Of a stretch of 64,000 nt of DNA, positions 1,989 to 63,717 are shown piece after piece (position 1 is the stretch's first letter; every line of letters begins with the position of its first letter). This stretch comes from Fulvivirga sp. M361 (GTDB lineage: Bacteria > Bacteroidota > Bacteroidia > Cytophagales > Cyclobacteriaceae). The stretch is taken from NCBI RefSeq assembly GCF_007097395.1, contig NZ_VKDC01000009.1, forward strand, positions 124,001 through 188,000. Reading direction: 5' to 3'. The notes under the pieces are model-generated. The model saw only the letters and a program-made list of their open reading frames with translations. It did not search any database and had not been told where the DNA came from. Position numbers and translations under genes: made by a program.

Positions 1989-1996
1989 TATTTTTG
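1989..1996 (+). promoter_or_regulatory. candidate -7 box (TATTTTTG)
   Basis: TATTTTTG matches the Bacteroidota sigma-ABfr -7 consensus TAnnTTTG and lies 18 bases upstream of the ATG at 2015. No clear -33 TTG was found at the usual spacing, so this is a moderate call. Confidence 0.4.
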
Positions 1997-2014
1997 GTAA
2001 CAACCACTACAATC

Positions 2015-2215
2015 ATGAACACTATCATTAAAAAACAAGCCATCGTTCAATCGTTGGATTCGATGAACGATGGAGACATGGAGAATGTACTGGGCTATAT
2101 TAAGGAGCTTTTGTACAATGAACAATTGGACATGACTTATCAAGACTTTAAGAAGCAGGCCATGATCCAGATCAATCAAGCGTTGGATGACAATAAGAAG
2201 CTGGTGACAGCTTAA
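2015..2215 (+). CDS. small antitoxin-like protein, 66 aa
   Basis: The ATG at 2015 is preferred over an in-frame TTG at 1994 because it sits directly downstream of a TAnnTTTG box. The product is short, acidic to neutral and predicted helical (IVQSLDSMNDGDMENVLGYI at its core). This resembles the N-terminal half of small Bacteroidota antitoxins that begin with a 'rule out, then one amphipathic helix' pattern, but no toxin gene lies beside it. The downstream neighbour is convergent. Function is not established. It could be a solitary antitoxin or an unrelated small regulator. Confidence 0.5.
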   Translation: MNTIIKKQAIVQSLDSMNDGDMENVLGYIKELLYNEQLDMTYQDFKKQAMIQINQALDDNKKLVTA

Positions 2216-2238
2216 TTTCCAATCTTGAATTGATGACA

Positions 2239-2279
2239 AATATACTTACTGTCGTCTGAAAGAGACCACTAAGTATATT
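2239..2279. terminator. hairpin between convergent genes
   Basis: Perfect 10-bp inverted repeat AATATACTTA (2239-2248) / TAAGTATATT (2270-2279) with a 21-base loop. It lies between the convergent small ORF and the pseudouridine synthase gene and overlaps the last codons of the latter. A bidirectional terminator is likely. Confidence 0.5.
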
Positions 2280-3294
2280 GCACATAATTTTCCCATTTTT
2301 CCAGGACTTCCCTCATATCCTCAGGAAGTTCTGAAGAGAACTGCATTCTCTTTTTTGTAACAGGGTGGATAAACCCTAACGACTTGGCATGTAACGCTTG
2401 TCTTGGAATGATTCTGAAGCAATTGTCCACAAAACTTTTGAATTTGGAAAACTGGGTGCCTTTCAAAATCCTGTCGCCACCGTAAGTGGCATCATTAAAA
2501 AGAGGATGTCCAAGATATTTCATATGTGCACGGATCTGATGCGTCCGCCCTGTTTCCAGGTTACATTTTACCAAAGCTACATATCGCAAGTCTTGAATGG
2601 TTTCATAGTGAGTTATGGCATGTCTGCCAATGGAATCATCTTCAAAGGCCATTGTTACTCGCCTGTCTTTCGGGCTGCGCCCTAAATTTATAGTTATAGT
2701 GCCCTTTTCAGGTTCAGGTATACCCCATACCAGAGCATAATAAGTTCTTTCAATAGAATGGTCAAAAAACTGTTTGGCCAGTCCCGTCATGGCAAGCTCA
2801 CTTTTGGCGATTACCAGCAGACCGGAAGTGTCTTTATCGATGCGATGGACCAGTCCCGGCCTCCCGTCATTTCCCTCCATTTCCGGTAAGTTTTGAAAAT
2901 GATAAGTGAGCGCATTTACCAGGGTGCCCGTCCAATTTTGGTAAGCCGGATGTACCACCATTCCGGCTTCTTTATTGACCACAAGCAAATGTTCATCCTC
3001 AAAAACAATGTTTAAGGGGATATTTTCAGGTACTACTTCTGTATCACGGGGTGGTTCAGGCAGGGCAATGATGATCCTATCGCCCGGATGGACCTTATAA
3101 TTTGGTTTTACCTCCTTATCATTCACTTGTACAAATCCATCTTTTATGCCTGACTGAATTTTGGTACGTGTAGTATTCGGCAGGCGGTCCATCAAAAACT
3201 TGTCAATACGGATCAAGGTCTGGTTGGGATCAGCGATAATCTGATGATGTTCATAAAGCGAATCATCTTCTTCTTCAAAGTCTTTTAATGACAT
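2269..3294 (-). CDS. rluD: RluA/RluD-family 23S rRNA pseudouridine synthase
   Basis: The 341-residue protein has an N-terminal S4 RNA-binding domain (about residues 28-90) and a PseudoU_synth_2 catalytic domain. The signature HRIDKDTSG is at residues 150-158, with the catalytic aspartate at 153. Near the C-terminus is the family block TGRTHQIRAHM. These enzymes isomerise uridines in 23S rRNA (RluD acts in helix 69 in E. coli), and the S4-plus-catalytic layout and length fit RluD best. The substrate positions cannot be read from sequence, so RluC-like specificity remains possible. The gene starts 46 bp downstream of the RDD gene on the same strand and may be co-transcribed with it. Confidence 0.9.
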   Translation of the reverse strand: MSLKDFEEEDDSLYEHHQIIADPNQTLIRIDKFLMDRLPNTTRTKIQSGIKDGFVQVNDKEVKPNYKVHPGDRIIIALPEPPRDTEVVPENIPLNIVFEDEHLLVVNKEAGMVVHPAYQNWTGTLVNALTYHFQNLPEMEGNDGRPGLVHRIDKDTSGLLVIAKSELAMTGLAKQFFDHSIERTYYALVWGIPEPEKGTITINLGRSPKDRRVTMAFEDDSIGRHAITHYETIQDLRYVALVKCNLETGRTHQIRAHMKYLGHPLFNDATYGGDRILKGTQFSKFKSFVDNCFRIIPRQALHAKSLGFIHPVTKKRMQFSSELPEDMREVLEKWENYVQYT

Positions 3295-3340
3295 GGATAG
3301 TATTTGTGCTCTTTAAATATTTATAAAAAATGGGGAACTG

Positions 3341-5113
3341 TCATTCATACAACCTGATAAACTCGGCTTCAAGATCCTGACCTTTGACTTCATACCGGTA
3401 AGAAGTACCCTCATTGTCTATTATACTTATCTCAAAATGATAAGGTTCTCCCTTTTGAGAGTTTTCAGCACTAAGCGAGATGCTTGGGTAACTGTCGTTT
3501 TCGGCGGTAGGCAACTCTAATGGGAATGTAGTGATCCATCGAATATCCTGCACTATATTTTTAATAGATGTAATTCTGCAGGGTCGCCCCTCATTGATTA
3601 TATTCATTTCAAATGAATTCCTACTTAAACGACCACCACCACTGGTCCGTAAAATAGGGCCGAAAGCCTCGTAGATATTTTCTACCTTATAGAATGAATT
3701 GTCATTCAGAAAAGCGAAACTCTCATCATTTTTAGAGCGCAGTTGATTATATTCATATATTGAGTTAGTCATAAGGTCAGTGCGACTGATTTCGACTTTA
3801 TTGAAGGCGTATTGATTTTGGAGGTAGTACTGCTCAATGTCGTACTTACTTGTAGAATATGATTTTTTGAAGGGTACAATACTACAATAGACATGGTTGC
3901 CATTTACATCTTCCACTTTTAAGTAATAAGTAGTATCCGAAGAATATGGTCTTTCGGTGTTTTTCAATTCAATCATCGTATTATGCGACAGATGTTCAAT
4001 AGTATTACGATTCCTCTCCATCTTTCGCTCATGGCGGGCTTTGGATTTCAAATACCATTGATGATCTTCCCAGGCCTCATTACCAAAATACAAGCCGACA
4101 ACAATGGCTATGGCGATAGGAAAGATCCAGAAGTAATGCCCACCTTTGACGCCGGTACGAATTTCCTTTACCACCGCCGTATTTGACCATTTGTCATGCC
4201 AACCACGGTCTCCTAAAAACGAAAAAGCATCAAACGGGACATAGCGCGATAATGTTCTTAGAAGTATTTTGGTGCTTTCAGGGCGTTTGAAATCAGTACT
4301 GACTACACGTGTTTCAGAAAGAAACTTGGCAGGTGTCATACCCAGCAACGTTTCGAAAAATAAATAATAAACGAGCCTGAAAGCTAAAATTATACCGTAA
4401 GCGGTATAACGTTCACCTAATGAATTTTCCAGCCCACCCATAAATTCAAAGTAGCTGATAAACGGTGATAAAATTAAAATACTCATGTACGTATCAAAAA
4501 CCAGATTGAAGATACGTTGCCAACGGGTGGCCTCCCCTCTGTTATATTTAATGACTTTTTCTTCTAAAGCTTCAGAGGCTAACTTTTCAGAATCCAGCTT
4601 ATCCTTGGCCAGCGTTTTTAACGACCAATAACTCAGATAAATAATAAGTACACCAACAAATTTAAAGAGCACATAAGCCGGCCATGAAAAATTGCTGTCC
4701 AAACTGCGAAAGTTCAGCAAGGGGTATATGGTGTATATGATAAGGCCGGCGGAATTCGAAAGTATTATTAAAGACAGAAAAAACCTCAGAAGCCTTTGTT
4801 CACGCTCGCTTGTGAAGTAATACAATGCTAATCCGATCAAACCAATAATGTAAACTACCAGGTTAAGCTGATTGATGTACATCCCGTTATCAAAAATGAT
4901 AACATACCTCTGAAAAAAAGTGAAAAAACCGAGGTTAAGATTAGATAAAAACCCTTTGATGTAAAACAAGAACCTGGCGTCTTCAAACGCTACATTTTGG
5001 AAAATAAAAGGAAGAAGCTCCGCCAGAATACCCCCGGCACTAAAGTAAAGTCCTATGATGGAAATTACCTTGATTTTAGATTGGGTACTAAGAAATTGGT
5101 CAATGGCATTCAT
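3341..5113 (-). CDS. RDD-family multi-pass membrane protein
   Basis: The start is taken at the ATG at 5113. A TTG 12 codons further up is in frame but poorly placed. The N-terminal third contains several hydrophobic helices. The RDD-type domain spans roughly residues 200-330 and includes ETLLGMTPAKFLSETRVV and the basic/aspartate positions that name the family. Another TM helix near residue 340 (FPIAIAIVVGLYFG) precedes a soluble C-terminal region of about 230 residues with no family I recognise. RDD proteins are poorly characterised inner-membrane proteins, with some linked to ion transport. The large soluble tail is unusual for the family, whose members are often 150-300 residues. Confidence 0.75.
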   Translation of the reverse strand: MNAIDQFLSTQSKIKVISIIGLYFSAGGILAELLPFIFQNVAFEDARFLFYIKGFLSNLNLGFFTFFQRYVIIFDNGMYINQLNLVVYIIGLIGLALYYFTSEREQRLLRFFLSLIILSNSAGLIIYTIYPLLNFRSLDSNFSWPAYVLFKFVGVLIIYLSYWSLKTLAKDKLDSEKLASEALEEKVIKYNRGEATRWQRIFNLVFDTYMSILILSPFISYFEFMGGLENSLGERYTAYGIILAFRLVYYLFFETLLGMTPAKFLSETRVVSTDFKRPESTKILLRTLSRYVPFDAFSFLGDRGWHDKWSNTAVVKEIRTGVKGGHYFWIFPIAIAIVVGLYFGNEAWEDHQWYLKSKARHERKMERNRNTIEHLSHNTMIELKNTERPYSSDTTYYLKVEDVNGNHVYCSIVPFKKSYSTSKYDIEQYYLQNQYAFNKVEISRTDLMTNSIYEYNQLRSKNDESFAFLNDNSFYKVENIYEAFGPILRTSGGGRLSRNSFEMNIINEGRPCRITSIKNIVQDIRWITTFPLELPTAENDSYPSISLSAENSQKGEPYHFEISIIDNEGTSYRYEVKGQDLEAEFIRLYE

Positions 5114-5505
5114 TTTTTCAGGTAGGATTTTCAATTTGAAAAAAAGCAAGGTAAGGAATTAATAATATAAATACTCCCTGAACCATACAGAGAGCACGTC
5201 AAAGGATGGCAATTTTAATGAAACAACCTTATTACTTTTATGACGGAGACAATAAGGCTGAAAGAAGACCCGAATAGAACCTTAATTAGTTTCAAAGAGT
5301 ACCTCACCACTTTTATTTTGTTGCAAATGGAAGAGAACGCAGCGTTAATTATTGGCCTGTGGTCCGATAATCCAAGATAATTTCTTTCCGCTAATGAAAA
5401 TAAAAAACACTGATATTCAATTTATTATCCGACAACAAACGTTTACAAATGTAACCTAAACGAATACAAACATTTACCATACGACTGTGGCCTGATCGCT
5501 CTTTT
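5114..5505. other. intergenic region upstream of ssb
   Basis: About 390 bases between the divergent RDD gene and the ssb promoter. It is AT-rich with stops in all frames and no recognisable RNA or repeat. It presumably carries the two divergent promoters. Confidence 0.4.
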
Positions 5506-5512
5506 TACTTTG
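5506..5512 (+). promoter_or_regulatory. candidate -7 box (TACTTTG) for ssb
   Basis: TACTTTG is one base short of the TAnnTTTG consensus and lies about 90 bp upstream of the ssb ATG. The same heptamer occurs just before another gene start in this window (45365-45371), which gives it slight support. Confidence 0.3.
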
Positions 5513-5601
5513 CATCGTTCCAATTTCAATACCTCTTTTACGAGTGACAGGAATAGAAGAACACATGATAAATCATTTTGTAATTTTAAAATTTAAGTCG
5601 T

Positions 5602-5943
5602 ATGAAAAGTTTAAGAAACACCGTTCAACTGATTGGAAGATTAGGTAAAGATCCTGAAGTAAAAACCTTGACATCCGGTAGGAATTTGGCCACATTCACC
5701 ATAGCTACTACAGACATGTATTATAATGCCGACGGAGAGAAAGTCGAAGATACACAATGGCACAATATCACTGCCTGGGGGAAAAGGGCTGATATAGCTT
5801 CTAAATATCTGGTGAAAGGACAGGAGATTGCATTGGAAGGCAGGTTGATCCACCGTTCTTACGAAAACGGCAATGGTGAAAAGAGATACGTTACCGAGGT
5901 GAGTATGAACGAACTCTTGATGATAGGAGGTAAAAAAGTTTAA
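5602..5943 (+). CDS. ssb: single-stranded DNA-binding protein, short form
   Basis: A 113-residue OB-fold protein with the SSB signature at the N-terminus (VQLIGRLGKDPEV, then TFTIATTDMY, then WHNITAWGKRADIASKYLVKG). It binds ssDNA, normally as a homotetramer, during replication and repair. It stops at IGGKKV and lacks the glycine-rich linker and acidic C-terminal tip (DDxPF type) that most bacterial SSBs use to recruit partners. It is therefore probably an accessory SSB rather than the essential replicative one. It sits 86 bp upstream of recQ on the same strand, so SSB and helicase are likely expressed together. Confidence 0.93.
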   Translation: MKSLRNTVQLIGRLGKDPEVKTLTSGRNLATFTIATTDMYYNADGEKVEDTQWHNITAWGKRADIASKYLVKGQEIALEGRLIHRSYENGNGEKRYVTEVSMNELLMIGGKKV

Positions 5944-6029
5944 ATGAACAGGAAGTATCGGCGGTAAAGGAAAAATGAGATACCCTTTGCCGCTCTTTTT
6001 CTTCCGAATTTTGACGAAATATATGAGCT

Positions 6030-8186
6030 ATGAATACTTTACTACCCACTGACCCACTCGCCATATTAAGAGGTACATTTGGTTATCATGATTTCCGGCG
6101 TTCACAACGTGAAATAATCGATAGTGTATTGGCGGGAAAAGATACATTGGTACTGATGCCAACAGGAGGAGGGAAATCGCTATGTTATCAAATTCCTGCT
6201 CTTGTCAAAAGAGGAACGGCCATCGTGGTTTCCCCTTTAATCGCTTTGATGAAAGACCAGGTAGATGCTTTACGTCTCCATGGTATTGCTGCCGCTTATT
6301 TAAATTCTACACAAACTACCGAGGAACAAAGCCACATTATGGACCTGTTGCGTACGGGAGAATTGAAGTTACTTTACATGGCTCCGGAAAGATTGCTTGG
6401 CCGCGAGCAACAGTTTATCAATTTCATTAAAGAATTAGCTATTTCATTGGTAGCGGTGGATGAAGCCCACTGCATTTCCTCATGGGGTCATGATTTCAGG
6501 CCGGAGTACCTGTTGCTTTCAAAGATCACCAAAGCGCTTGGAGACCGTGTCCCGGTGGTGGCATTGACCGCTACGGCCGACAATCTGACACAAACAGATA
6601 TTGCTGAAAAGCTGCAACTCCGACAGCCACGCATCTTTGTCACAGGCTTTAACCGGCCCAATATTCGGTATGTAGTGCAGCCTAAGAACAATACATACGT
6701 ACAACTGGTCGATTTTTTAAGTCAGCATAAAAGTGATGCAGGTATAATTTACACCCTAAGGCGCGCAGATACTGAGCAACTGGCAGAACGTTTATCCCTG
6801 GACGGCTTTTCTGCCAAACCCTATCATGCTGGTCTTGGAAGAGAAACAAAAAATAACCACCAGGAAGCTTTTTTAAAAGATGAAGTCAGCATTATAGTAG
6901 CGACTATTGCATTTGGTATGGGCATTGATAAATCCAATGTTCGCTTTGTTGTGCATATGGATCTGCCTAAAAATATAGAAGGATACTACCAGGAAACGGG
7001 TAGAGCCGGACGTGATGGATTGCCAAGCACGGCACTGATGTTTTACTCGTATGCGGATTTTTTTATGATGCAAAAGCTTACCACTATCACCGATAATGAG
7101 GAGCAATCCAAAGTAATGGAAAACAAGCTTCGGGAAATGGCCAATTTCGGTAGCCTGAGAACTTGCAGACGCAGATTTTTGCTACAATATTTTGGTGAAG
7201 AAGCCGCGGCCTATTGCGGTAATTGTGATAATTGCCTGACTGATTACGAGGAGATAGACGGAACATTGATAGCCCAGAAGGCACTATCAGCTGTGACGAG
7301 GTTGGGGCAATCCTTCGGTGTCAATTATGTTATTGATTTTCTTAGGGGTTCAAGCTCACAAAAGATCAGGGAAGTACATAGAAAGATCAAGACCTTTGGT
7401 GTAGGGGTTGAGTTGTCCAAAGATGAATGGAGACACTACCTGAATGAACTCATACAAATGGGATTCCTGAAGAGGTCTTCCGGTCAATATCCGGTATTAG
7501 AACTTACAACTAAAAGCAAGGAGGTACTAGCTCATGGGGCCAGCGTAAAACTTCCTAAACTGGTTGAGAAAGAAATACAAACGGAAGGATCTGAGGAGGT
7601 CGAATTACATGTCGATCTTGGCGTGATACTCAAAGAACTTAGAAAAATGATTGCTGATAGTGAGGGAGTGCCTGCTTATGTGGTTTTTTCCGATGCCAGC
7701 TTAAGAGAGCTACTTCTTTACTTACCCACCACTTTACAGCACCTGGAACAGATCAGTGGATTTGGAATGGTGAAAGTGCAGCGTTATGGTGATCCTATAA
7801 TAGAAAAGATAGCCGCTTACTGCAAGGAACACAATCTTGAATCAAAAGAACGGGCCGTACCTAAAGCCACTTCCAAACGGACGAAGTCAGCCGGGGGAAC
7901 TCACTTGAAAACACTGGAACTTTTCAAAAACGGTCGAAGTATCAGGGAAATCGCGAAGGAAAGGAACCTGAGGCATGGTACCATTGAATCGCACCTTGAT
8001 CTTCTTATTAAAGAAGGTAAGCTCCAAATCAGCGAAGCGCTGTCGGCAGAACGGGTCAATACAATATTAAGTGTGTTGTCTGATATACGTGAACCTGGCC
8101 TTAAGCCTGTCAAAGAGAAGTTGCCGGAAGACTTCAGCTATGGAGAGATTCGAATGGTCATGACCCACAAGAATTTGAATAAATAA
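6030..8186 (+). CDS. recQ: ATP-dependent DNA helicase RecQ
   Basis: The 718-residue protein has a Walker A motif (MPTGGGKSLCYQ, K49), DEAH box (144-147) and aromatic-rich loop HCISSWGHDFRPEY. Motif VI is QETGRAGRDG, and the zinc-binding cysteines are CRRRFLLQYFG...CGNCDNC. A winged-helix RQC region and an HRDC domain (about 530-610) follow. It unwinds duplex and structured DNA 3'-5' in recombination and stalled-fork repair. It is about 100 residues longer than E. coli RecQ. The extra C-terminus ends in a helix-turn-helix-like module (SIREIAKERNLRHGTIESHL) seen in other Bacteroidota RecQs. The start ATG at 6030 fits the family N-terminus. Confidence 0.95.
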   Translation: MNTLLPTDPLAILRGTFGYHDFRRSQREIIDSVLAGKDTLVLMPTGGGKSLCYQIPALVKRGTAIVVSPLIALMKDQVDALRLHGIAAAYLNSTQTTEEQSHIMDLLRTGELKLLYMAPERLLGREQQFINFIKELAISLVAVDEAHCISSWGHDFRPEYLLLSKITKALGDRVPVVALTATADNLTQTDIAEKLQLRQPRIFVTGFNRPNIRYVVQPKNNTYVQLVDFLSQHKSDAGIIYTLRRADTEQLAERLSLDGFSAKPYHAGLGRETKNNHQEAFLKDEVSIIVATIAFGMGIDKSNVRFVVHMDLPKNIEGYYQETGRAGRDGLPSTALMFYSYADFFMMQKLTTITDNEEQSKVMENKLREMANFGSLRTCRRRFLLQYFGEEAAAYCGNCDNCLTDYEEIDGTLIAQKALSAVTRLGQSFGVNYVIDFLRGSSSQKIREVHRKIKTFGVGVELSKDEWRHYLNELIQMGFLKRSSGQYPVLELTTKSKEVLAHGASVKLPKLVEKEIQTEGSEEVELHVDLGVILKELRKMIADSEGVPAYVVFSDASLRELLLYLPTTLQHLEQISGFGMVKVQRYGDPIIEKIAAYCKEHNLESKERAVPKATSKRTKSAGGTHLKTLELFKNGRSIREIAKERNLRHGTIESHLDLLIKEGKLQISEALSAERVNTILSVLSDIREPGLKPVKEKLPEDFSYGEIRMVMTHKNLNK

Positions 8187-14323: not shown

Positions 14324-14593
14324 ATGAACAAGATGGACAGGATACAAACTGTGGAAACAACATTCAAATTGACGTATACCCCTGAACAGTACGACAAAGC
14401 GGTGGCTTACATTGAAGATATGAAAAAACACCCTAAACGTATTTTTTGGTTAGGTAAGAAGGGGAAAACGGATGAGGAACTCATTTATTCACACATTGCA
14501 CATCGGATACTTTCTGGGTTTTACAATAATTATGACCCTACCTTTGCACGTCAGCAGATTATGGATATGACGAATAGAAAAGTATTGGATTAG
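14324..14593 (+). CDS. hypothetical protein, 89 aa
   Basis: A small basic protein without signal peptide or TM segment. It starts with an amphipathic strand (VETTFKLTYTPEQYDKAVAY) and has a lysine-rich centre. I do not recognise the family. It is divergent from the nitrilase gene (72 bp apart) and convergent with the barrel protein gene, with only 9 bp between stops. Confidence 0.55.
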   Translation: MNKMDRIQTVETTFKLTYTPEQYDKAVAYIEDMKKHPKRIFWLGKKGKTDEELIYSHIAHRILSGFYNNYDPTFARQQIMDMTNRKVLD

Positions 14594-14602
14594 TCAGGTG
14601 AA

Positions 14603-15250
14603 TCAAAACTTTACACCCAGATCAATGCCCACATAATCATTTTTTAGTGTGAGGTCTGTATCCAATGGAGCCTGGTCACTGACAACGTTTAGCAGACCGC
14701 GGTTGTAAGTAAACCCTCCAAAGATCGTTGTATTCACACCGAGCCGGTACTCCAACCCTATTCCTGCCAGTAAAGACGAATCGAAAAATTTGAAATTATC
14801 CACCAGGAAATTCGCCTTGTCTTTTGCCTCTTCTTCAATATTGAATTCCATGGTAGTCCCTAATTTGAAATAGATCTTTTTATCGATGCTGATCTCATTC
14901 GTAAATAACTTTAGCGCTAAGGGTACACGTAAGTATTGAAGCTTGTATGTTTCACGTATAGGTGTCCCTGCATCACCTGGTCGACTGGCTTCTATTCCTG
15001 CTCTTTTCGAGACAAAAAGCAACCCTGAACTGAAGTAGTAGTTCTCCTTTATCTGCACATCTATGATGGGCCCAAAAGCAAAGCGCAAACCGGTACCATT
15101 CGTTTCAATATTCAGCGTATCAGAGTCTGCTGTAATTCTGTTAGTGCTTAATATCGGCGTCATCTGTAAGCCTATCTTAAACTGAGCAAGCGAACCGCCA
15201 GCTAAGAATAAGAGCATACCCGTCAACAGCATATATTTTCTCATGAGCAT
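14603..15250 (-). CDS. outer-membrane beta-barrel protein (PorT/OmpW-like)
   Basis: A 215-residue protein with an N-terminal signal peptide (KYMLLTGMLLFLAGGSLAQ) and a C-terminus ending in VGIDLGVKF, an aromatic terminal residue typical for outer-membrane barrels inserted by BamA. Alternating hydrophobic strands and short Gly/Asn turns are visible throughout (GLEYRLGVNTTIFGGFTYN). This places it in the large outer-membrane beta-barrel group of Bacteroidota (PF13568-like). The start may be the ATG at 15250 or at 15244. It is divergent from gldB with about 60 bp between starts. Confidence 0.8.
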   Translation of the reverse strand: MLMRKYMLLTGMLLFLAGGSLAQFKIGLQMTPILSTNRITADSDTLNIETNGTGLRFAFGPIIDVQIKENYYFSSGLLFVSKRAGIEASRPGDAGTPIRETYKLQYLRVPLALKLFTNEISIDKKIYFKLGTTMEFNIEEEAKDKANFLVDNFKFFDSSLLAGIGLEYRLGVNTTIFGGFTYNRGLLNVVSDQAPLDTDLTLKNDYVGIDLGVKF

Positions 15251-15311: not shown

Positions 15312-16328
15312 ATGACTCGAAAAGTACACTACTTTATACTTGCCGCTCTTATTGGCTTTCTCTCCTTTTGGTCATGTCAAACCTCTGACTATAACGAATG
15401 TGTTTATCAACCTGATATATCCGGTCACGAAATTCAGCTGGAAGTGGAGGAGCTTCATAAAAAGCTTTTGAACGTTGAAAGCAAAGATGAGCTACAGACA
15501 TTTCTAAAGACTTATCCTATTATTAGCGCTGTTTTCCTTCAGAGCCGTAATTATCCCAGTGAAGAGGTAATGGTAGACGAGCTGTTCAAAAGGTTCACCA
15601 ACCCGCAAATTGCTGTTTTGGATGGTGAGATAGACCGTGTTTTTGGAGATTTGTCAACCCTTAAGAGTGAACTGAACAGTGCTTTTAGCCATTTAAGGTA
15701 TTATTATCCTGATGTACCACTTCCCAAAGTGCAGACAGTGGCTACAGGATTGATGAATGACCTGTATGTTTCGGATTCCTTAATCATCATCGGCCTGGAC
15801 TATTATTTAGGCGAGGGTGCAAAATATCGACCCATCAATATGTTCAACTACATTCTGAGGCGTTATGCTTCCGAATATATTGTACCATCTATCATGCTGT
15901 TATATGGTATTTCACCCACTTTTAATGTGACGGATGTTTCTGACAACACTATTCTGGCAGAGATGGTATCCTATGGCAAATCATTTTACTTTGCAAAACA
16001 AATGATGCCTTGCACTCCTGACAGTATTATGATATGGTACACAGGGGAAGAAATGGCGGGAGTGCGTGAGAATGCTGCTATTATCTGGACACATTTTGTA
16101 GAAAATGAGCTGCTCTTTGAAACTAATCATGAAGTAAAACGAAAATATATTGAAGATAGACCGAAAACTTATGATATTGGTGATAAAGCGCCGGGACGAA
16201 TTGGGACGTGGTTAGGGTGGCAGATTGTACAGGCTTATATGAAAAAGCAAGAAAATATTTCATTACCTGAACTTATGGAAACGAAAGAACCCCAGGCGAT
16301 CTTTAATGCATCAAAATACAGACCTTGA
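15312..16328 (+). CDS. gldB: gliding motility-associated lipoprotein GldB
   Basis: The ATG at 15312 follows an upstream in-frame GTG at 15300. It begins an SPII signal peptide ending in the lipobox SFWSC. The 338-residue product has GldB features: the helical N-terminal region (DELFKRFTNPQI), LIIIGLDYYLGEGAKYRP, RRYASEYIVPSI and DKAPGRIGTWLGWQIVQAYM near the end. GldB is a cell-envelope lipoprotein required for gliding in Flavobacterium and is also present in non-gliding relatives. It is followed by coaX with 2 bp between, an arrangement that suggests one operon. The other gliding genes are not in this window. Confidence 0.87.
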   Translation: MTRKVHYFILAALIGFLSFWSCQTSDYNECVYQPDISGHEIQLEVEELHKKLLNVESKDELQTFLKTYPIISAVFLQSRNYPSEEVMVDELFKRFTNPQIAVLDGEIDRVFGDLSTLKSELNSAFSHLRYYYPDVPLPKVQTVATGLMNDLYVSDSLIIIGLDYYLGEGAKYRPINMFNYILRRYASEYIVPSIMLLYGISPTFNVTDVSDNTILAEMVSYGKSFYFAKQMMPCTPDSIMIWYTGEEMAGVRENAAIIWTHFVENELLFETNHEVKRKYIEDRPKTYDIGDKAPGRIGTWLGWQIVQAYMKKQENISLPELMETKEPQAIFNASKYRP

Positions 16329-57430: not shown

Positions 57431-58207
57431 TCATTTTTCGATTAGATCCGTTATAATTTTTTCCAGATCATCTTTATTTCCTTTATACCACTCTAACCAT
57501 TTGTCCCAGTCCTTTTTACGGCTATTGACTTCCGTAACCTTTATTTTTATGTTTTCTACAGCTTCCATCTCAGGAATTATCTGAATATATTTACCTTTCA
57601 AGGTATAGGCCTGGCCCGGAGTCACGTTTTTAAGTTCTATAGGATTCAAACTAAATGAATGCATTTTTTTGTCCTTATCGTAATAATTCAAGGTGATTTC
57701 TATAATAACATTCGTTTTTTTGTGTTTGGCTTTTAGCTTTACCGGCGTTAAATTGAAAACGGCATTAGACAGCTCTATGGCCCTGCTGCCTTTGAGTACA
57801 GTATGCTCTATGTCGCTCAATTTGAAATCCAGCCGGGTAATGGTAGTGGCTCCCGACATTTTTTCATAAGTGATGGTTTTTATAGCATCGAATTTTTGGA
57901 TCTCGTAATTAGCTTTTGCAGTCTTCAAAAGACTCACATCAACACCGGATTCTTTCATATACTTTTTTGGATTGTAAAAAAGTTTTGGTGCCAGGTCAAT
58001 CAAATGGGGAAGCAATGTACCAATGATCAGGGAAGCCCCGAGGGCCTTTTTATCGGGTGAGAAATTTAGCGATTCTTCTATCCCTTTTAAAGTCTCTTTT
58101 TTTACATCGTTCCCTACGACTTTGTAAAAAGTGGAAGCTTCCTGCGGCCGGGCCTGATTAAAGGCCAGGAGGCAGCAAAAGAGTGATAGTATGAATTTGA
58201 TTTTCAT
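57431..58207 (-). CDS. exported protein of unknown function, last gene of the caspase operon
   Basis: A 258-residue protein with a signal peptide (FILSLFCCLLAFNQARPQ) and a mixed body. A hydrophobic helix (GASLIIGTLLPHLIDLAPKL) near residue 57 precedes a strand-rich, lysine-rich region (LKGKYIQIIPEMEAVENI). It ends in an amphipathic helix. No family is recognised. It follows the caspase gene by 27 bp on the same strand, so it may be a substrate, partner or inhibitor. Confidence 0.55.
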   Translation of the reverse strand: MKIKFILSLFCCLLAFNQARPQEASTFYKVVGNDVKKETLKGIEESLNFSPDKKALGASLIIGTLLPHLIDLAPKLFYNPKKYMKESGVDVSLLKTAKANYEIQKFDAIKTITYEKMSGATTITRLDFKLSDIEHTVLKGSRAIELSNAVFNLTPVKLKAKHKKTNVIIEITLNYYDKDKKMHSFSLNPIELKNVTPGQAYTLKGKYIQIIPEMEAVENIKIKVTEVNSRKKDWDKWLEWYKGNKDDLEKIITDLIEK

Positions 58208-58234
58208 GATGTTTAAGTATTTAAGAGTGAGTGT

Positions 58235-59029
58235 TTATGATATGGTAAAAGGTCTTTGTCGGGCAAAAGTCTGATCAGCTATCCCTCCTAATGAGATCTG
58301 AGGGTTACGGTCCGTTGTTTTTTGAGCGATTTTTTCTATGAAGGTTCCATAATCTCCGCTAAATTTTCCATTGTCCCAGACCTCCCGGATGTTTTGTGTG
58401 AATTCACTCAGAGGATAACCGGAAATGGCCTGGTCATGGTCTTCACAGGCAGAAAGAGTGATTACATTTGCTTTGCAGACAGGCCTTGGGTGTAGGTCCA
58501 GTTGTTGTAAGATGGTTTCATAGAATAGTTTGTTTTGATGAAACACTTCAAATGATTTTTCCTGTTCCAGGTTCTTTGTTAAAGATTCAGAAGGTGTGTT
58601 AAAGGATTTGTAGATGGTCCTGTTATGGCAGCTGTCTGTAATGATGAGGACTCTTACCCCTTCGTTAAAAGCACTGAGAAGCCGGTGTATTTCATCATCA
58701 ATAAGTTGTGCATCGTGGAGGCACCATGTTTCATCCCGGTTATCGTCTTCATCCTTATTATAATCGGGAATGAAAGAGCCATGCCCGGAATAAGTAATGA
58801 CTACGATGTCCCCTTTTACTGCTTTTGTGGCATAATGTGCAAAGTGCTTATACACATTTTTTCGAGTGGCGTTTTCACTGAGCAACAGTTTTGACTCATA
58901 CCCTAGTGCACCTAAAACGTCCAGCATATATCTGGCGTCATTTTCGCACGATGACAGCTTGCCATTGCCACCATAGTGCTGCGTGTCTAAAAAGTTAATA
59001 CCGATGTGTAATGAATATCCATGTGCCAT
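58235..59029 (-). CDS. caspase-family (metacaspase-like) protease
   Basis: The ATG at 59029 is chosen over a TTG two codons up. The 264-residue protein has the p20 fold: YSLHIGINFL, the histidine motif TYSGHGS (His83), and the cysteine motif ITDSCHN (Cys134). Acidic residues DEDDNRDETW precede the second subunit region. These are clan CD proteases, cleaving after Arg/Lys or Asp. In bacteria they act in cell suicide or defence, or in signalling. The site is SCHN where many relatives have SCHS. No signal peptide is present, so it works in the cytosol. It sits between a small membrane protein and an exported protein gene. Confidence 0.85.
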   Translation of the reverse strand: MAHGYSLHIGINFLDTQHYGGNGKLSSCENDARYMLDVLGALGYESKLLLSENATRKNVYKHFAHYATKAVKGDIVVITYSGHGSFIPDYNKDEDDNRDETWCLHDAQLIDDEIHRLLSAFNEGVRVLIITDSCHNRTIYKSFNTPSESLTKNLEQEKSFEVFHQNKLFYETILQQLDLHPRPVCKANVITLSACEDHDQAISGYPLSEFTQNIREVWDNGKFSGDYGTFIEKIAQKTTDRNPQISLGGIADQTFARQRPFTIS

Positions 59030-59031
59030 GA

Positions 59032-59370
59032 TCAAAAGATTTTAAAGTAGTTTTTAGTTTTAAATTGGTGGGTGAGTGACTTGGCCGGGGGCCCCGGGTT
59101 TATCCACTCTATTGAAATTTTAGCCAACTTTCGGATTACAGACGGAAACATAAATGCCACCACGATGTAGTGCCATTGTTCTTTACCATCAAAGCTGTCT
59201 ACCAGCACTGGGGTGGCCAGTGAAAATAAAACGATGGCCGCCAGTGTAATGATCCAATAGTCTACAGACCTGGTCAGCCTTACATTACCTCCTAATACTT
59301 GCTTCAGGTCTACCCAATGCAATACTTCCTGGATACACGCTCCCAATAGACATAATAAGTATTTCTCCAT
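59032..59370 (-). CDS. small membrane protein, first gene of the caspase operon
   Basis: A 112-residue protein with two main TM helices (YWIITLAAIVLFSLATPVLV; WHYIVVAFMFPSVIRKL) and a hydrophobic N-terminus. It ends 2 bp before the caspase ATG, so they are translated together. The pairing of a small membrane protein with a caspase-like protease recalls gasdermin-like or effector-sensor pairs. It shows no gasdermin motif, and its role as a membrane effector is inference. An 18-nt palindrome lies 54 bp upstream. Confidence 0.6.
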   Translation of the reverse strand: MEKYLLCLLGACIQEVLHWVDLKQVLGGNVRLTRSVDYWIITLAAIVLFSLATPVLVDSFDGKEQWHYIVVAFMFPSVIRKLAKISIEWINPGPPAKSLTHQFKTKNYFKIF

Positions 59371-59423
59371 TTTTCTGTTATTTGATCAGGAGCTAAAATT
59401 GGATGGAAATTCGCCCTCATAAC
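59371..59423 (-). promoter_or_regulatory. promoter region of the caspase operon
   Basis: On the minus strand the element GCGAATTT is 36 bases upstream of the start codon. The same octamer lies 33 bases upstream of the protease gene at 63638. It may be a shared promoter or operator part. Confidence 0.4.
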
Positions 59424-59441
59424 ATCACCATCAATGGTGAT
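59424..59441 (-). promoter_or_regulatory. 18-nt palindrome, operator candidate
   Basis: On the minus strand ATCACCATTGATGGTGAT has 8-bp arms with a 2-base centre. It is preceded by AGCAAA and followed by GTTATG. The palindrome at 63700-63717 has the same neighbours (AGCAAA and GTTTTG). It is a good site for a dimeric response regulator. Confidence 0.6.
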
Positions 59442-59600
59442 TTTGCTTGTTATGCACTTTTCAATATCTGATAAGGAGCGAGATCAGGGAATTTGTAAAT
59501 GAAGGGTCACGTTCGTAAAGTCTTGAAGAATGCTTGACTCTCGATAGATTAGTGCAGAGAATTTTGTTTGGTGACCGGACCGGATCAAAGCGATTCTTTG
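59442..59600. other. intergenic stretch between the two operons
   Basis: About 160 bases downstream of the response-regulator gene; no gene and no strong hairpin seen. Readthrough from the regulator operon into the caspase operon is possible. Confidence 0.3.
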
Positions 59601-60221
59601 TTAAGCATCAAAATGATATTTTTTGTCAATAGCATATCTCATCAGTTCTCCGCTTCCGCTTAATCCCAGTTTTCGGATCATGTTTTTTCGGTGGGTATCT
59701 ACGGTGTTTTTACCTATAAATAGCGTTTCGGCAATTTGATTGGAAGTTTTTCCATTCGCAATGAGTTGCAAGATCTCCTTTTCCCTGCGAGATAAGACAC
59801 TTTTAGAGCTGTTTTTATCAGACGGCGCAAGCGTTACTTTTTTGTCGAAATAAGTCTTTCCTTGTGCTACGGTCCGAATGGCGTCTAACACTATGTCCAG
59901 GGTAGAATCTTTCAGAATATAGCCGGAGGCGCCTGCTTCCAGCATCTGTTGTATTGCCTTAGGCTGATCGAACATGGTAAAGGCAATGACCCGGGTGGAG
60001 GGGTATTGACGTGTGATGATCCTGGTAGCTTCTATGCCATCCATAACAGGCATCCGGATGTCGCAAAGTACTACCGAAGGTAGCCGGGTCCTGACAAGGT
60101 GCAATAGTGCATCCCCGTTATTGGCGCTGCCTATGATCTTGATACCGCTTTCATATTTGGTATAAGACTTAATGCCATCGATCAGTGCCTGATGGTCTTC
60201 TGCTATTACTACTTTTATCAT
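59601..60221 (-). CDS. NarL/FixJ-family (LuxR-type) response regulator
   Basis: A 206-residue protein. The receiver domain (1-120) has the acidic pair near the start (VVIAEDH) and the phosphoacceptor Asp54 in VVLCDIRMPVMDG. The C-terminal HTH domain (about 143-200) has LSRREKEILQLIANGKTSNQ and KNTVDTHRKNMIRKLGL. It overlaps the kinase gene by 4 bp, so the pair is coupled. Such regulators bind inverted repeats as dimers when phosphorylated. The palindromes near 59424 and 63700 are likely targets. Confidence 0.92.
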   Translation of the reverse strand: MIKVVIAEDHQALIDGIKSYTKYESGIKIIGSANNGDALLHLVRTRLPSVVLCDIRMPVMDGIEATRIITRQYPSTRVIAFTMFDQPKAIQQMLEAGASGYILKDSTLDIVLDAIRTVAQGKTYFDKKVTLAPSDKNSSKSVLSRREKEILQLIANGKTSNQIAETLFIGKNTVDTHRKNMIRKLGLSGSGELMRYAIDKKYHFDA

Positions 60222-62116
60222 GAGGGTAAGTTTATAATAATAGAGGTTCCCTTACTTATAATACTTTCTACTGTTAAGTTTCCACTTAGGTAGCGGACTC
60301 TTTTTTGAATGTTCTGCAAGCCCATACCATCGGTGGTATTGTACGGCGTGGACGTATCAAACCCTCTGCCGTTGTCTTCAACGATCAGGTTTAGTGTGTT
60401 TTCATGTTGGGTAAATTGAATACTTGCCTGATCAGCCCCGGAGTGCTTGATAATGTTGGTTACCAGCTCTTGCGTGATCCTGAATAGCGTAAGTTCCAGG
60501 GAGCCTTCAATACGGTTATCCATACCATGATCGTTCACCTCGATCATCAATCCGTTGGATGAAGATATGTTTTCAGCCATTTTTCTTACCGCAGGCAGTA
60601 GTCCTTCTTGTGAAAAAACACCTACGTTCTTGGTATGTGAAATAGTGCGTATCTTTTCGTATACCTGGTCAAGGATTTTATCCGTGTTTTTAAAGGCAAG
60701 GTCATTTTTGTCTGTTGGGATATTATTCAAGTGTAGTTTAGCCGTGGCCATCAGGCTCCCAAGGTCATCGTGAAGCTCATTGGCTACACGCAGCCGTTCC
60801 TTTTCCTGACCCAGTATCATGGCATCCACATTTGCCAGTTCCTGCTCTTTGAGTAGTGTCATCACCTTTTGCTCCTCGATGTCCTTTTGCTGTTCTGCAA
60901 GCTTTTGTTTTTTAATAGTATTTTGCTGGATCAGTACGGCTATAGATCCGCCCAATACCAATACGGAGACTGTTACGATAAGTAAATTCCTCTGTTTCCG
61001 GTGCTCTCTGTCAATATCTGCTTTCAGCTTTAAATTCTCTTTCTCTCTTTTTTCCGTTTCATAGATCGTATTGATCTCCGCCACACTGAGGTCGATCTTA
61101 TTTTGGTATCGCCTGCGCCTTAACTTCATTTCCTTTACTTTATGGTGGTAGGCTGAATCAGGCTTATTCATTGACCTGAGATGTGCGGCCGTCCACTGAT
61201 GAAAAAGCACCATGTTTTGACCGGTGGTGTCCCTGATAAAGCTTTTTGCATAACAAAGATTGAAGGACGAAGCATCATGGTCTCCCAGAAAATTATAAAC
61301 AATGCCCTTATTGATCAATAAACCTATTTTCTTTTTCAATGCCCAGTGGGCAGGTTCATACTGTGCATAAAGTGCCAATGACCGATCGTAATAGTCAATG
61401 GACTTACGTAGCTTACTGATGTCAGGGTCCGGATGTCCGGCATAAACATCATATTTTACGCCGATCAGTTTGTAGTAATAGGCCAGTGTGATCTTGTTGT
61501 CGTGGGCTTTGGCCAGTTCTGCTCCCTGAAATAATTCTTCAATGTAAGGTTTTGAATCGATGAGTGAGCGGGCCCTTATCCTGGCGATCTTGGCACGGTC
61601 TTTTTCAAAGTGATCGAACGCAGCGGCGCTGTATTCTTGAATGAGCACTTCCAACAGCGGAAAGTTCTTTTCACGCCTATTGACATGGTCTATCATCCTT
61701 TTCAATGCTTCGCAAATGAGGAGAGAGTCACCTATTTTTACTGCAATATCTTTTGCTTTCAGGTGGTGAGTATAAGCGACGGACTCGTCTACATTGCTAG
61801 CCAGCAGGAAGTCGCCGTAATACAGGTGAAATATTGAGGACTGAAGCGTAGTGTCATTTTCAAAATGAAGAAGGCTGTCTTTTGGAAAGCCTTCTATTGT
61901 GCCGTTGGTGAGATTACTATACTTCCAATGTAATGCTTGTACGGCAGCTCTTTTCGTGGTTATATCATCTCCGTCTTCAAAAAATGTCATTAATCCATTT
62001 ACATCAAATAAACGAAGCTCATTAACACGGTGCTTGAGTATTTTGTCATCCATACTATTTTGTGAGAATGATATCCCAACAGTAGCGATCAATAGTATGG
62101 TGATTATTTTGTTCAA
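60218..62116 (-). CDS. TPR-containing sensor histidine kinase (HisKA_3 type)
   Basis: A signal peptide (IITILLIATVGISFSQ) precedes a periplasmic TPR-like helical region to about residue 370. A TM helix (LLIVTVSVLVLGGSIAVLI) and a coiled coil follow. The dimerisation domain has phosphoacceptor His near 448 in ANELHDDLGS. The ATPase domain has VEDNGRGFDT and MGLQNIQKRVRYLSG. It is a 632-residue member of the NarX/DesK-like group. A periplasmic TPR sensor implies it monitors a protein or envelope state. The response regulator overlaps it. Confidence 0.9.
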   Translation of the reverse strand: MNKIITILLIATVGISFSQNSMDDKILKHRVNELRLFDVNGLMTFFEDGDDITTKRAAVQALHWKYSNLTNGTIEGFPKDSLLHFENDTTLQSSIFHLYYGDFLLASNVDESVAYTHHLKAKDIAVKIGDSLLICEALKRMIDHVNRREKNFPLLEVLIQEYSAAAFDHFEKDRAKIARIRARSLIDSKPYIEELFQGAELAKAHDNKITLAYYYKLIGVKYDVYAGHPDPDISKLRKSIDYYDRSLALYAQYEPAHWALKKKIGLLINKGIVYNFLGDHDASSFNLCYAKSFIRDTTGQNMVLFHQWTAAHLRSMNKPDSAYHHKVKEMKLRRRRYQNKIDLSVAEINTIYETEKREKENLKLKADIDREHRKQRNLLIVTVSVLVLGGSIAVLIQQNTIKKQKLAEQQKDIEEQKVMTLLKEQELANVDAMILGQEKERLRVANELHDDLGSLMATAKLHLNNIPTDKNDLAFKNTDKILDQVYEKIRTISHTKNVGVFSQEGLLPAVRKMAENISSSNGLMIEVNDHGMDNRIEGSLELTLFRITQELVTNIIKHSGADQASIQFTQHENTLNLIVEDNGRGFDTSTPYNTTDGMGLQNIQKRVRYLSGNLTVESIISKGTSIIINLPS

Positions 62117-62122
62117 TTACAT

Positions 62123-62608
62123 TTAACTGGGAGTGAAGCGAATGTCACATGATCGGTCATTATTAACATCTTCCGTGTAGAAATTAACCATTCCTTCTTC
62201 ATAGTTTGTAATACAATCTTTAGTATAATCTATTTTAATCCTCAAGGTATGATTATTAATATCAAATGGCTGATCAAATGTCAAAGTTTTTGGGTTGGTA
62301 TGCTGATCCTGGTTTCTAAAGATATTTAGTTTAACACCCAGATAATGAAGGTTTCCCTCGCCTGAATCAAACTTAATCTTTTCATCGATACTGTCAAGGG
62401 CGAAGTTTATAATACCTCCCATAGTTTTGCTTGTAAAGTCTGCGGTTAATTCATTAACGAAACCGCTTGTCAGGTCATGCTTAAATTTTGCTCCTATGGC
62501 AAAGGTTGATCCAAGCAAATGGGCATAATAAATACCCTGGTACTTGTCATTATGCTGTTGGTTTAAGCTGAATGTCAGTACTATCTGTCTTCCAGTAGAT
62601 TTGATCAT
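62123..62608 (-). CDS. hypothetical protein, 161 aa
   Basis: A strand-rich protein without signal peptide (KSTGRQIVLTFSLNQQHND; LLGSTFAIGAKFKHDLT; FYTEDVNNDRSCDIRF). It is 13 bp after the protease gene and 6 bp before the kinase gene, so it is part of one operon. No family is recognised. It could be a substrate or regulator of the protease. Confidence 0.5.
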   Translation of the reverse strand: MIKSTGRQIVLTFSLNQQHNDKYQGIYYAHLLGSTFAIGAKFKHDLTSGFVNELTADFTSKTMGGIINFALDSIDEKIKFDSGEGNLHYLGVKLNIFRNQDQHTNPKTLTFDQPFDINNHTLRIKIDYTKDCITNYEEGMVNFYTEDVNNDRSCDIRFTPS

Positions 62609-62621
62609 GGTTTTTATTTGT

Positions 62622-63638
62622 TTAAATGAATTTTTGAAATTTGAAATTTACTTTATGCGTGTTGTAGTCCTTACGGATTCTTTTTTTGAATATGTCCAAA
62701 GACATAAAATAACTATGGACATTTCCTTTGTCCTTTATCAGCAGCCCTACAGGCTCATTTTTTAAATTGAATACTACTGATCCCGAGTCGCCGGGTGCTG
62801 CCATGTCAGAAGTCTGTATTAAATTTTTTAACAGAGGTGTTTGGCCCGGTGTTATTCTTTTGGTAGAACAGTCAGACTTTACAGTACCGGTTTTAATGGC
62901 TCCTCTATGCGTGTGCGGACTACATATTTTTACTTTATCTCCGGGTGCAGGAAGTGGGCCTATGTTTTTACCTATTTCACAACAGCATATGCTACCCTTA
63001 GATACTTTTTTCGCGTCATCAACTTCGATTAAGGCGATATCTGAGAATTCATCGTATTCGTGCCAGTAGAAATGCCCTAACTTATATTCAAGTCTGGTGG
63101 GGGAGTACACTGCTGCCCTTTCATTTGACCTTTCAACACCTTTTTTGATAACATGATAAGCCGTTATCACATACCTCGTATCGTCGTCCTCACCTATCAG
63201 TACAGCCCCAAACGATCCGTACTTAGTTCTGTCAATGCCGTCATATAGCTTGTGACCCATCATTCTTGGCGAGAATACGCTACAGTTTTCATCGGCTTCA
63301 TAGATGTGTGACTGATCATCTGAGCTCAATGTTTTTATTAAAACCTTTAAAAGCCTAAGATCATGTTCCAGGTTTTTTTTCGTACTACCTTGTAAGGGCA
63401 ATTTGTATGCAATGTAGTCTTCCATGACCTCCAGATCGTAGATCTGATCATTCAGCCCTTTTGGGTTTTCTTTTTCCTTATCAAGATCATAGACCCCGAC
63501 AGAAAGTGAATAATCGTCAGCGTCTTCCTCTCTGACTACCGAAGCATAATCCCAATTAAGATTTTCCATGAGCCGGTCACCTTCTCGGGTAAGAAAGGTT
63601 TTGGCGTCTTCTTTTGACACCGTATTTTGTGAAGCCAT
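62622..63638 (-). CDS. cytosolic trypsin-like serine protease
   Basis: A 338-residue protein. The first 140 residues are acidic and uncharacterised. A trypsin-fold domain follows with triad His162 in ITAYHVI, Asp200 in FSDIALIEV and Ser285 in APGDSGSVVF. No signal peptide or TM is visible, so it acts in the cytosol. It is the first gene of the operon that ends with the two-component pair. Cytosolic trypsin-like proteases with an extra N-terminal domain are known as effectors in bacterial conflict systems. That role here is inference. Confidence 0.82.
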   Translation of the reverse strand: MASQNTVSKEDAKTFLTREGDRLMENLNWDYASVVREEDADDYSLSVGVYDLDKEKENPKGLNDQIYDLEVMEDYIAYKLPLQGSTKKNLEHDLRLLKVLIKTLSSDDQSHIYEADENCSVFSPRMMGHKLYDGIDRTKYGSFGAVLIGEDDDTRYVITAYHVIKKGVERSNERAAVYSPTRLEYKLGHFYWHEYDEFSDIALIEVDDAKKVSKGSICCCEIGKNIGPLPAPGDKVKICSPHTHRGAIKTGTVKSDCSTKRITPGQTPLLKNLIQTSDMAAPGDSGSVVFNLKNEPVGLLIKDKGNVHSYFMSLDIFKKRIRKDYNTHKVNFKFQKFI

Positions 63639-63699
63639 GAGTTACTATAGAGTTAATGTCTTTATGACCTAAAATTCGCTGAGATCAGCATCACAAAAC
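63639..63699 (-). promoter_or_regulatory. promoter region of the protease/two-component operon
   Basis: On the minus strand GCGAATTT lies 33 bases upstream of the start codon, similar to the 36 bases in the caspase operon. The gap from the palindrome is 20 bases here against 9 there, a difference of 11, about one DNA turn. Confidence 0.4.
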
Positions 63700-63717
63700 A
63701 TACCCAATGGTGGGTAT
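63700..63717 (-). promoter_or_regulatory. 18-nt palindrome, operator candidate
   Basis: On the minus strand ATACCCACCATTGGGTAT has 7-bp arms with a 4-base centre, preceded by AGCAAA and followed by GTTTTG. It lies 62 bp upstream of the protease gene. Its partner site is at 59424-59441. Confidence 0.6.

Follow-up and report, generated by a model that had tools for sequence, protein, structure and literature searches.

The conserved core of the locus described here consists of a small gene, a sensor kinase gene and a regulator gene, in that order; the caspase and the small membrane protein encoded beside it in Fulvivirga sp. M361 lie outside this core. We consider it fairly probable that the whole is a two-component cassette, autoregulated and linked to the envelope, in which the sensor pair diversifies and the proteases can be swapped, and through which an envelope signal would be turned into a burst of protease and an exported protein. 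The locus combines a switch sequence that is conserved, a sensor region that changes fast and proteases that are exchangeable, and it therefore gives the impression of a genuine signalling system.

The window, a stretch of 64,000 nucleotides, had been the subject of an earlier note. The seven minus-strand open reading frames, their order, the catalytic residues and the two 18-nt palindromes are all where that note placed them (Table 1). Its interpretation survives in part: the shared operator, the two-component core and the neighbourhood kept across species stand, and the caspase and TM112 as conserved members do not. Neither of the two outcomes that the note named as refuting it, scattered homologues without a kept neighbourhood and palindromes missing from orthologous promoters, was observed.

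Table 1. Genes and candidate operator sites of the locus (positions in the window)
Feature	Positions	Strand	Basis or remark
TRYP, trypsin-like protease, no evident signal peptide	62622..63638	-	N-terminal domain of ~120 aa plus S1 domain, H162/D200/S285
P161, small protein directly 5' of kinase, conserved slot	62123..62608	-	Position and homology
HK, sensor histidine kinase	60218..62116	-	TM near residue 376, HisKA_3-like plus HATPase_c
RR, NarL/LuxR-type response regulator	59601..60221	-	Pfam; 4-nt overlap with HK
TM112, small membrane protein	59032..59370	-	Hydropathy
CASP, C14 caspase-like protease, GSU0716 (PDB 3bij) type	58235..59029	-	H83/C134, Pfam, PDB homology
SP258, signal-peptide protein (judged by eye)	57431..58207	-	Homologue after caspase in L038
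Candidate operator B, ATACCCACCATTGGGTAT	63700..63717	-	61 nt upstream of TRYP start
Candidate operator A, ATCACCATTGATGGTGAT	59424..59441	-	53 nt upstream of TM112 start

Close relatives of the regulator cluster with a sensor kinase in related genomes, as had been expected of a conserved neighbourhood, at 39 loci in one other family, that of Kordia. (Kordia itself is represented by L172, which is the same place as L043 and is counted once.) A small gene lies directly 5' of the kinase gene at 35 of these 39 loci, and its position is missing or cut off in four of 41. It is recognisably P161-like at 12/18 and 4/12 loci outside the training sets, the remainder being equivalent by position alone. 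L161 and L189 run into contig ends, L126 and L127 were entered by hand into the small-gene set, and E-values from local HMMER searches refer to small local sets. Across the phylum the regulator is sparse, with relatives in 6 of 395 genomes, where scoring was limited to 7 candidates in each genome.

Upstream of the small gene is a slot that is occupied at 15 loci, and at 12 of them the occupant is a protease from one of four unrelated families: trypsin in the window; subtilisin, caspase and papain-like proteases elsewhere. The exceptions are L126, with a ZIP-like flanking gene, and L186 and L198, each with a small membrane protein; overlapping short reading frames (75 aa in L164, 63 aa in L174) were left out of the slot counts. 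The downstream slot also sometimes holds a protease, of the caspase, metzincin, M48-like or V8-like kind. Altogether 15 of the 39 loci found through the regulator have a protease inside the cassette and 24 have none. A caspase on the coding strand occurs in just two of the 39, upstream in L168 and downstream in L172, and besides these in the window and in L038, a locus found through the caspase; hence the caspase does not belong to the conserved core. The first downstream gene has a signal-peptide-like start at 23 of 34 loci, compared with 107 of 331 background reading frames (Fisher 1e-4), by a home-made heuristic that does not tell such starts from N-terminal TM segments like that of TM112. 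The commoner output is thus a protein with such a predicted start.

By fold and H-D-S triad TRYP is an S1 trypsin-like peptidase (Trypsin_2, 36.2 bits, Pfam cut-off 27.6), with H162 in AYHV (from 160), D200 in DIAL (from 200) and S285 in GDSGS (from 283). Trypsin-like proteins fill the same slot in L124, L127, L167, L043/L172, L173, L188 and L195; in the alignment H and S are invariant (8/8), and D is kept in 7/8, with E in L195. TRYP itself was found in one genome of 98, its own, in none of 14 congeners, and without relatives among plasmids. Two candidate identities were set aside. The N-terminal domain resembles SNaCT14 (PF22720) at chance level: only L195/G759 reaches 18.6-19.2 bits, the cut-off being 27, and no match in 12 genomes passes it. 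PADLOC returned only domain-level matches on the locus, and its LmuA match is restricted to the trypsin domain (2.9e-7). Lamassu requires LmuA with an SMC-type LmuB alongside, and none of the seven proteins is of that kind.

CASP matches Peptidase_C14 with 62.4 bits (Pfam cut-off 21.4) and is homologous over its full length, with the H/C dyad, to GSU0716 (PDB 3bij; E 1.4e-51), which makes it a C14 protease of that type. The molecule name of 3bij is "uncharacterized protein", which gives no functional information. Counting from TTG, SGHG and DSCH begin at 83 and 134; the dyad is H83/C134 when numbered from ATG, because ATG lies two codons after TTG. Caspases of this kind turn up widely and sporadically, in 18 plasmid records and with 445 relatives. 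CASP is not an EACC1-associated caspase, as NCBIfam NF047832 gives 15.6 bits where 140 are needed. TM112 has one clear TM segment by a strict Kyte-Doolittle rule and no relative among 193 other genomes. A reading of it as a YLATT three-TM protein, suggested by the Rhizobium plasmid locus L036, was rejected (no match to PF20303 at E<=1; hhalign probability 0.6% against one YLATT protein). So was a small TM protein as a general caspase partner, which under the strict rule occurs at one of the 67 loci, out of 80, where the script located the caspase. An SP258 homologue comes after the caspase in L038, which belongs to a different order from the window, and a weak match (5e-4, small local set) comes after the V8-like protease in L170; a profile search of the PDB with the SP258 alignment gave nothing significant. 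In the comparison with Pfam profiles none of the seven proteins has a gasdermin-type match.

The candidate operator is the second element that recurs. ATCACCATTGATGGTGAT and ATACCCACCATTGGGTAT share the flanks GCAAA/GTT, and A scores only 10/14 against B (shuffle p 0.03). A search of the 8.13-Mb genome with GCAAAATNNCCANNNNTGGNNATGTT, a pattern built on the pair, gives two exact matches, and both lie at this locus. With up to three mismatches the pattern has 35 in that genome and a reversed control has 7, a figure in which palindromic places count twice and another palindrome family makes up part of the excess; the sites centred on AAGGTT/AACCTT seem to form a set of their own, which we do not claim as regulator targets. 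The flanks alone are not above chance within the window (12 places at up to two mismatches, 12.7 expected), where they match exactly three times, both operator sites included. In other species a similar palindrome precedes the core operon and the downstream genes at most of the loci tested, which bears out the idea of one operator common to both operons. Scores of at least 11/14 are reached by 37 of 48 cassette regions and by 8 of 140 intergenic regions elsewhere in these loci (Fisher 1e-21), leaving 11 of 48 below 11; in held-out loci the counts are 19 of 25 and 7 of 85 (Fisher 8e-11), with 6 of 25 below. Regions shorter than 30 nt were set aside, two in the first test and two (L189, L193) in the held-out one. 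Genome-wide, in the family of Kordia, a palindrome pattern built on the first set of loci is present in 27 of 37 regulator-positive and 61 of 360 other genomes, and in 6 of 14 positive genomes outside its derivation (Fisher 0.02); the fit is imperfect, since those 61 genomes have the pattern without a close regulator and 10 of the 37 have the regulator without the pattern. The palindromes are unlikely to be terminators, because they lie 53 and 61 nt ahead of start codons and are met again in front of genes in other species. We infer that they are candidate binding sites of the regulator.

The regulator combines Response_reg (88.2 bits, cut-off 30.2) with GerE (68.8, cut-off 23.5), and next to it the kinase has HATPase_c (47.4, cut-off 26.4) and HisKA_3 at 19.7, below its cut-off of 24, which is passed in all six kinase relatives scanned. 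The kinase had been called a TPR histidine kinase. TPR is matched in four of six relatives, above a cut-off in two, and Pfam gives none in the window kinase itself, so that its N-terminal part is TPR-like by its relatives; it is predicted to be periplasmic. Median identities across loci are 67% for the regulator, 58% for the kinase core, 18% for the kinase sensor half and 17% for P161. The distances of P161 and the sensor covary (partial Mantel given the regulator, r=0.59, p=0.001), and, in a repeat that left out L164 because L162 and L164 are near-identical congeners, less strongly by rank (0.30) and for distant pairs (0.27). The P161 family has no significant Pfam or PDB relative, also in a PDB profile search with its alignment, and an AlphaFold2 model from two sequences was unusable (mean pLDDT 33). 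Divergence shared by neighbouring genes could stem from block recombination.

If the favoured reading of an autoregulated two-component cassette is correct, an envelope signal would act on the kinase and lead to phospho-regulator. Phosphotransfer and operator binding are both putative, as predicted from domains and sites. The regulator would bind the palindrome ahead of the core operon and the downstream genes; activation would therefore raise the cassette itself, as positive feedback, together with its outputs. P161 and the N-terminal half of the kinase may form a single diversifying sensor pair, and the protease encoded 5' of P161 could act on P161, on the kinase or on a cellular target. The downstream slot would supply an exported protein, SP258 in the window, there alongside the caspase and the membrane protein. 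A burst of intracellular protease and exported protein might then bring about envelope change or cell death. A defence or suicide role is possible. The more specific proposal of a two-component immune or self-destruct system, with P161 and the kinase sensor as a rapidly diversifying receptor pair, the protease as exchangeable effector and phosphorelay transcription replacing a STAND/nucleotide switch, seems to us rather unlikely.

Other explanations can be suggested. Tentatively, the locus might be an anti-phage or conflict system whose sensor pair detects infection and whose proteases bring about abortive infection or arrest growth, transcriptional induction taking the place of the STAND/nucleotide switch. 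The sparse distribution of regulator and TRYP, the fast divergence of sensor half and P161 and the interchangeable proteases would suit it, as would genes for restriction-modification in the vicinity of the cassettes L124, L162, L174 and L176, TIR and nSTAND1 genes behind L038, and the Trypco2 domain of L162, which owes its name to conflict systems, according to the relevant passages of PMC7159879. However, the defence-type neighbours were confirmed among ten hand-picked ones, without a background rate, PADLOC matches are domain-level only, the output is often just a protein with a signal-peptide-like start, and in our judgement induction through transcription looks slow for an abortive-infection system. 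Perhaps, instead, the system serves envelope stress or remodelling with no part in conflict: the kinase would sense periplasmic protein or surface signals and induce exported proteins, and the proteases would be quality control. We hold this as tentatively as the first alternative. The signal-peptide-like starts downstream point to it, as do the presumed periplasmic sensor and small genes with a signal peptide or lipobox, judged by eye, in L157, L158, L166, L190, L191 and L196, but it leaves unexplained why four protease families without signal peptides share one slot, and why presence is patchy and divergence fast. Finally, that the locus is an ordinary two-component pair with protease genes as mere chance neighbours is very improbable and already disfavoured: sporadic, widespread caspases and 24 protease-free loci would allow it, but order and operator recur in other species, the slot is rich in proteases and the operator held up in held-out loci.

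We know other systems with some of these features. The VMAP/iSTAND ternary, NucA-trypsin and EACC1 conflict systems, as presented in the relevant parts of Kaur et al. 2020 (PMC7159879), likewise have interchangeable trypsin and caspase, small co-occurring proteins (Trypco1/2) and modular effectors; unlike them, the window locus has no MoxR, vWA, VMAP or NucA among its seven proteins. The passages concerned mention receiver domains and no kinase-regulator protease cassette. In the nuclease-protease pairs and caspase-nuclease (canu) systems, according to the pertinent sections of Tuck et al. 2025 (PMC12799240), unrelated sensor modules have likewise recurrently acquired trypsin-like or caspase proteases; the window locus differs in that its sensor is a histidine kinase and in the absence of an MBL nuclease among the seven proteins, which excludes it as a canu or MBL nuclease-protease pair. 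We found no prior description of the cassette in the open-access literature, a scope that leaves aside preprints and most subscription papers. What it offers is a link from bacterial caspase-like and trypsin-like proteases to one particular kinase, regulator and candidate operator, and therefore what switches such proteases on becomes directly testable; it also offers, in P161, a fast-evolving family whose divergence covaries with that of the kinase sensor domain. Two-component systems of the NarL/LuxR type whose sensor kinases contain TPR are common in Bacteroidota. The window cassette has the same domain make-up of kinase and regulator and palindromic sites ahead of its genes, and to these it adds the P161 gene, the protease slot and a fast-diverging sensor half.

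The seven genes of the window locus run in the order TRYP (a trypsin-like protease), P161 (a small protein), HK (a sensor histidine kinase), RR (a NarL/LuxR-type response regulator), TM112 (a small membrane protein), CASP (a C14 caspase-like protease) and SP258 (258 aa, with a signal peptide by eye). They are tightly spaced: 13 nt lie between TRYP and P161 and 6 nt between P161 and HK, HK and RR overlap by 4 nt, and TM112 and CASP are 2 nt apart, counted from the CASP ATG. The catalytic residues that the earlier note gave for both proteases are correct on the window sequence, and the two 18-nt palindromes with common flanks that it described are indeed present, one ahead of each operon. A pattern written from both palindromes has two exact matches in the whole genome. 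At 0.407 against 0.424 for the window, the GC content of the locus is no outlier.

Positions of the window locus and of features noticed at the loci compared
Locus	Positions	Strand	Content
Window	57431-63638	minus	seven-gene locus
L038	10608-18794		contiguous genes behind the cassette, after SP258: small TM protein, second caspase, another TM protein, TIR protein, DUF4062-nSTAND1 protein with LRR-like matches
L159	3585-7071	other strand, beside cassette	subtilisin-family protein adjoining an apparent MBL-fold protein (MBL by eye)
L168	10814-14536	other strand, close behind cassette	protein with eCIS core domain
L036, Rhizobium leguminosarum plasmid	1706-6837		consecutive genes for a trypsin, a hypothetical protein, a YLATT membrane protein and a GDSL-caspase fusion
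L030, past window end	14542-14811 and 15700-16023		small ORFs, repeated, near-identical

The locus looks accessory within its own lineage, because relatives were found neither of TRYP (E<=1e-10 in 97 other relatives, among them 14 congeners; 1e-6 among 394 other phylum genomes), nor of TM112 (0.001 among 193 other genomes), nor of CASP (1e-15 among 57 other genomes). Similar arrangements do occur elsewhere. A caspase-based scan of named genomes gave 445 relatives and 80 loci were kept; the best, L038 of Hyunsoonleella pacifica (55% identity), reads P161-like, HK, RR, CASP, SP258, and L043 of Kordia periserrulae holds RR, a trypsin-like protein, a small gene, HK and CASP. With RR as query (E<=1e-70, at most seven candidates scored per genome) at least 6 of 395 phylum genomes are positive, the window's own included. 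The RR of genome G489 (E<=1e-75) detects 37 of 397 genomes in family f26, which holds Kordia. All 39 RR-derived loci that were read come from this family, 25 first and 14 held out later. Together with the window and L038, and with Kordia counted once, they make 41 distinct loci (27 + 14).

HK is present in all 41 clusters; two Kordia-genus loci have RR at the front and HK at the end. A small gene stands immediately ahead of HK in 25 of the 27 first loci and 12 of the 14 held out, being missing in L125, L187 and L194, while in L161 the contig breaks off at this position. Outside the training sets, the P161 profile recognises it in 12 of 18 first loci and 4 of 12 held-out ones; the remaining small genes are equivalents by position only.

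Over 25 loci median identity is 67% for RR, 58% for the kinase core, 18% for the sensor half and 17% for the P161 slot, counting positional equivalents; alignments of sequences this divergent are noisy. The two Kordia-genus loci have RRs 93% identical, sensor halves 61% and small genes 21%. Once RR distance is removed, P161 distances correlate with those of the sensor (r=0.59, p=0.001; 0.30 by ranks with a near-duplicate out; 0.27, p=0.003, for the 262 of 276 pairs with sensor identity below 30%) and show no clear correlation with those of the kinase core (0.16, p=0.063). This fits a co-evolving sensor pair, in which P161 may contact the kinase sensor. Alternatively, neighbouring genes may have recombined as a block.

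The candidate operator ahead of TRYP, ATACCCANNNNTGGGTAT, served as a fixed query with 14 scored positions. Scores of at least 11 occur in 37 of 48 cassette promoter regions, the window's own two included, compared with 8 of the 140 remaining intergenic regions at those loci; by dinucleotide shuffling 39 of the 48 reach p<=0.05 and 32 reach 0.01. The window's second site, ahead of TM112, scores 10 (p 0.03). Of the 37 sites, 22 end within 80 nt of a start codon, and the unscored centre has a preference of its own; the consensus is ATMCCYATNAATGGGKAT, its scored columns biased by choosing sites on score. In the 14 held-out loci the identical query matches 19 of 25 cassette regions and 7 of 85 controls. 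Six of these seven controls lie behind the cassette, where further regulon members may start, and one lies ahead of the small gene of L193. Genome-wide, a pattern from the first loci has an exact match anywhere in 88 of 397 genomes: by our own count 27 of 37 RR-positive genomes and 61 of 360 others, a partly circular comparison given the source of the pattern. Among RR-positive genomes outside its derivation, 6 of 14 hold it (Fisher 0.02). The 61 without a close RR possibly have related regulators below the E-value cut. RR would bind the palindromic operator, and the cassette would regulate itself.

A second palindrome family, ATGACCAAGGTTGGTCAT and ATACCCAAGGTTGGGTAT, occurs between genes of the window's genome (C59, C64, C69, C70, C74 and C87; L023-L029, L181). 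It has a fixed AAGGTT/AACCTT centre, and several copies precede genes for exported or lipoprotein-like products; it is perhaps another regulon.

The slot before the small gene, counted as filled when a same-strand gene of at least 85 aa lies no more than 90 nt away, is occupied in 15 of 41 loci. In 12 of the 15 its product is protease-like: a trypsin-like protein in the window, L124, L127, L167, L043, L173, L188 and L195, an S8 subtilisin in L160 and L171, a C14 caspase in L168 and a C39/C70 papain-like protein in L163. Pfam scores clear a peptidase cut-off for the trypsin-like proteins of the window, L173 and L195 and fall short of it for those of L124, L043 and L188; for L127 and L167, with absent or marginal Pfam scores, the call rests on family profile, alignment and GDSG. 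By eye, none of the slot proteases has a signal peptide. The other three slots hold small membrane proteins (L186, 12 nt; L198, 79 nt) and, in L126, a ZIP-like flanking gene, found by eye also upstream of the trypsin in the congener L127. These congeners share their flanks, and the slot trypsin-like gene is in one and not the other, a natural presence/absence pair.

Same-strand genes follow the cassette in 34 of 41 loci, the window among them. In 23 of these 34 loci the first gene begins with a segment resembling a signal peptide, and in 27 at least one of the first three does, against 107 of 331 background ORFs (Fisher 1e-4 for the first gene). The rule behind these counts picks up N-terminal TM segments as well, and TM112 and the 156-aa protein of L160 count towards the 23; it likewise marks the second kinases found in L126 and L127. 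Proteases recur here: caspases in the window, L038 and Kordia, HExxHxxGxxH lipoprotein-like products in L124, L157 and L158 (weak metalloprotease Pfam matches for L124 and L158, motif alone for L157), an M48-like protease in L166, and, in L170, a V8-like trypsin with a weak SP258 match behind it. L162 has a Trypco2 protein. Since 15 of 39 RR-derived loci hold any protease in the cassette (own count), proteases are common and not obligatory.

What might the cassette do? Its gene content and order, operator enrichment and slot contents are matters of observation, and this description is firmer than either suggestion on function. A role in conflict is a possibility that we raise tentatively: distribution is patchy, the sensor diverges rapidly, proteases are swapped, and a scan of ten hand-picked neighbours met restriction-modification genes near L124, L162, L174 and L176 and TIR/nSTAND1 genes behind L038. 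An envelope response is conceivable to the same degree, somewhat short of probable; the outputs have signal-peptide-like starts and the sensor part is presumably periplasmic. SP258 would be exported, and the protease would act on some target.

We found no published account of the cassette in the open-access literature searched. Modular protease conflict systems are described in Kaur 2020 (PMC7159879) and Kaur 2021 (PMC8195603), and the parts seen of these papers contain no kinase-regulator protease cassette. The subtilisin and apparent MBL-fold pair of L159 recalls nuclease-protease pairs. According to the portions seen, unrelated immune systems repeatedly acquire trypsin-like and caspase proteases (Tuck 2025, PMC12799240), and Trypco1/2 are placed in such protease immune systems (PNAS 2024, PMC10907252).
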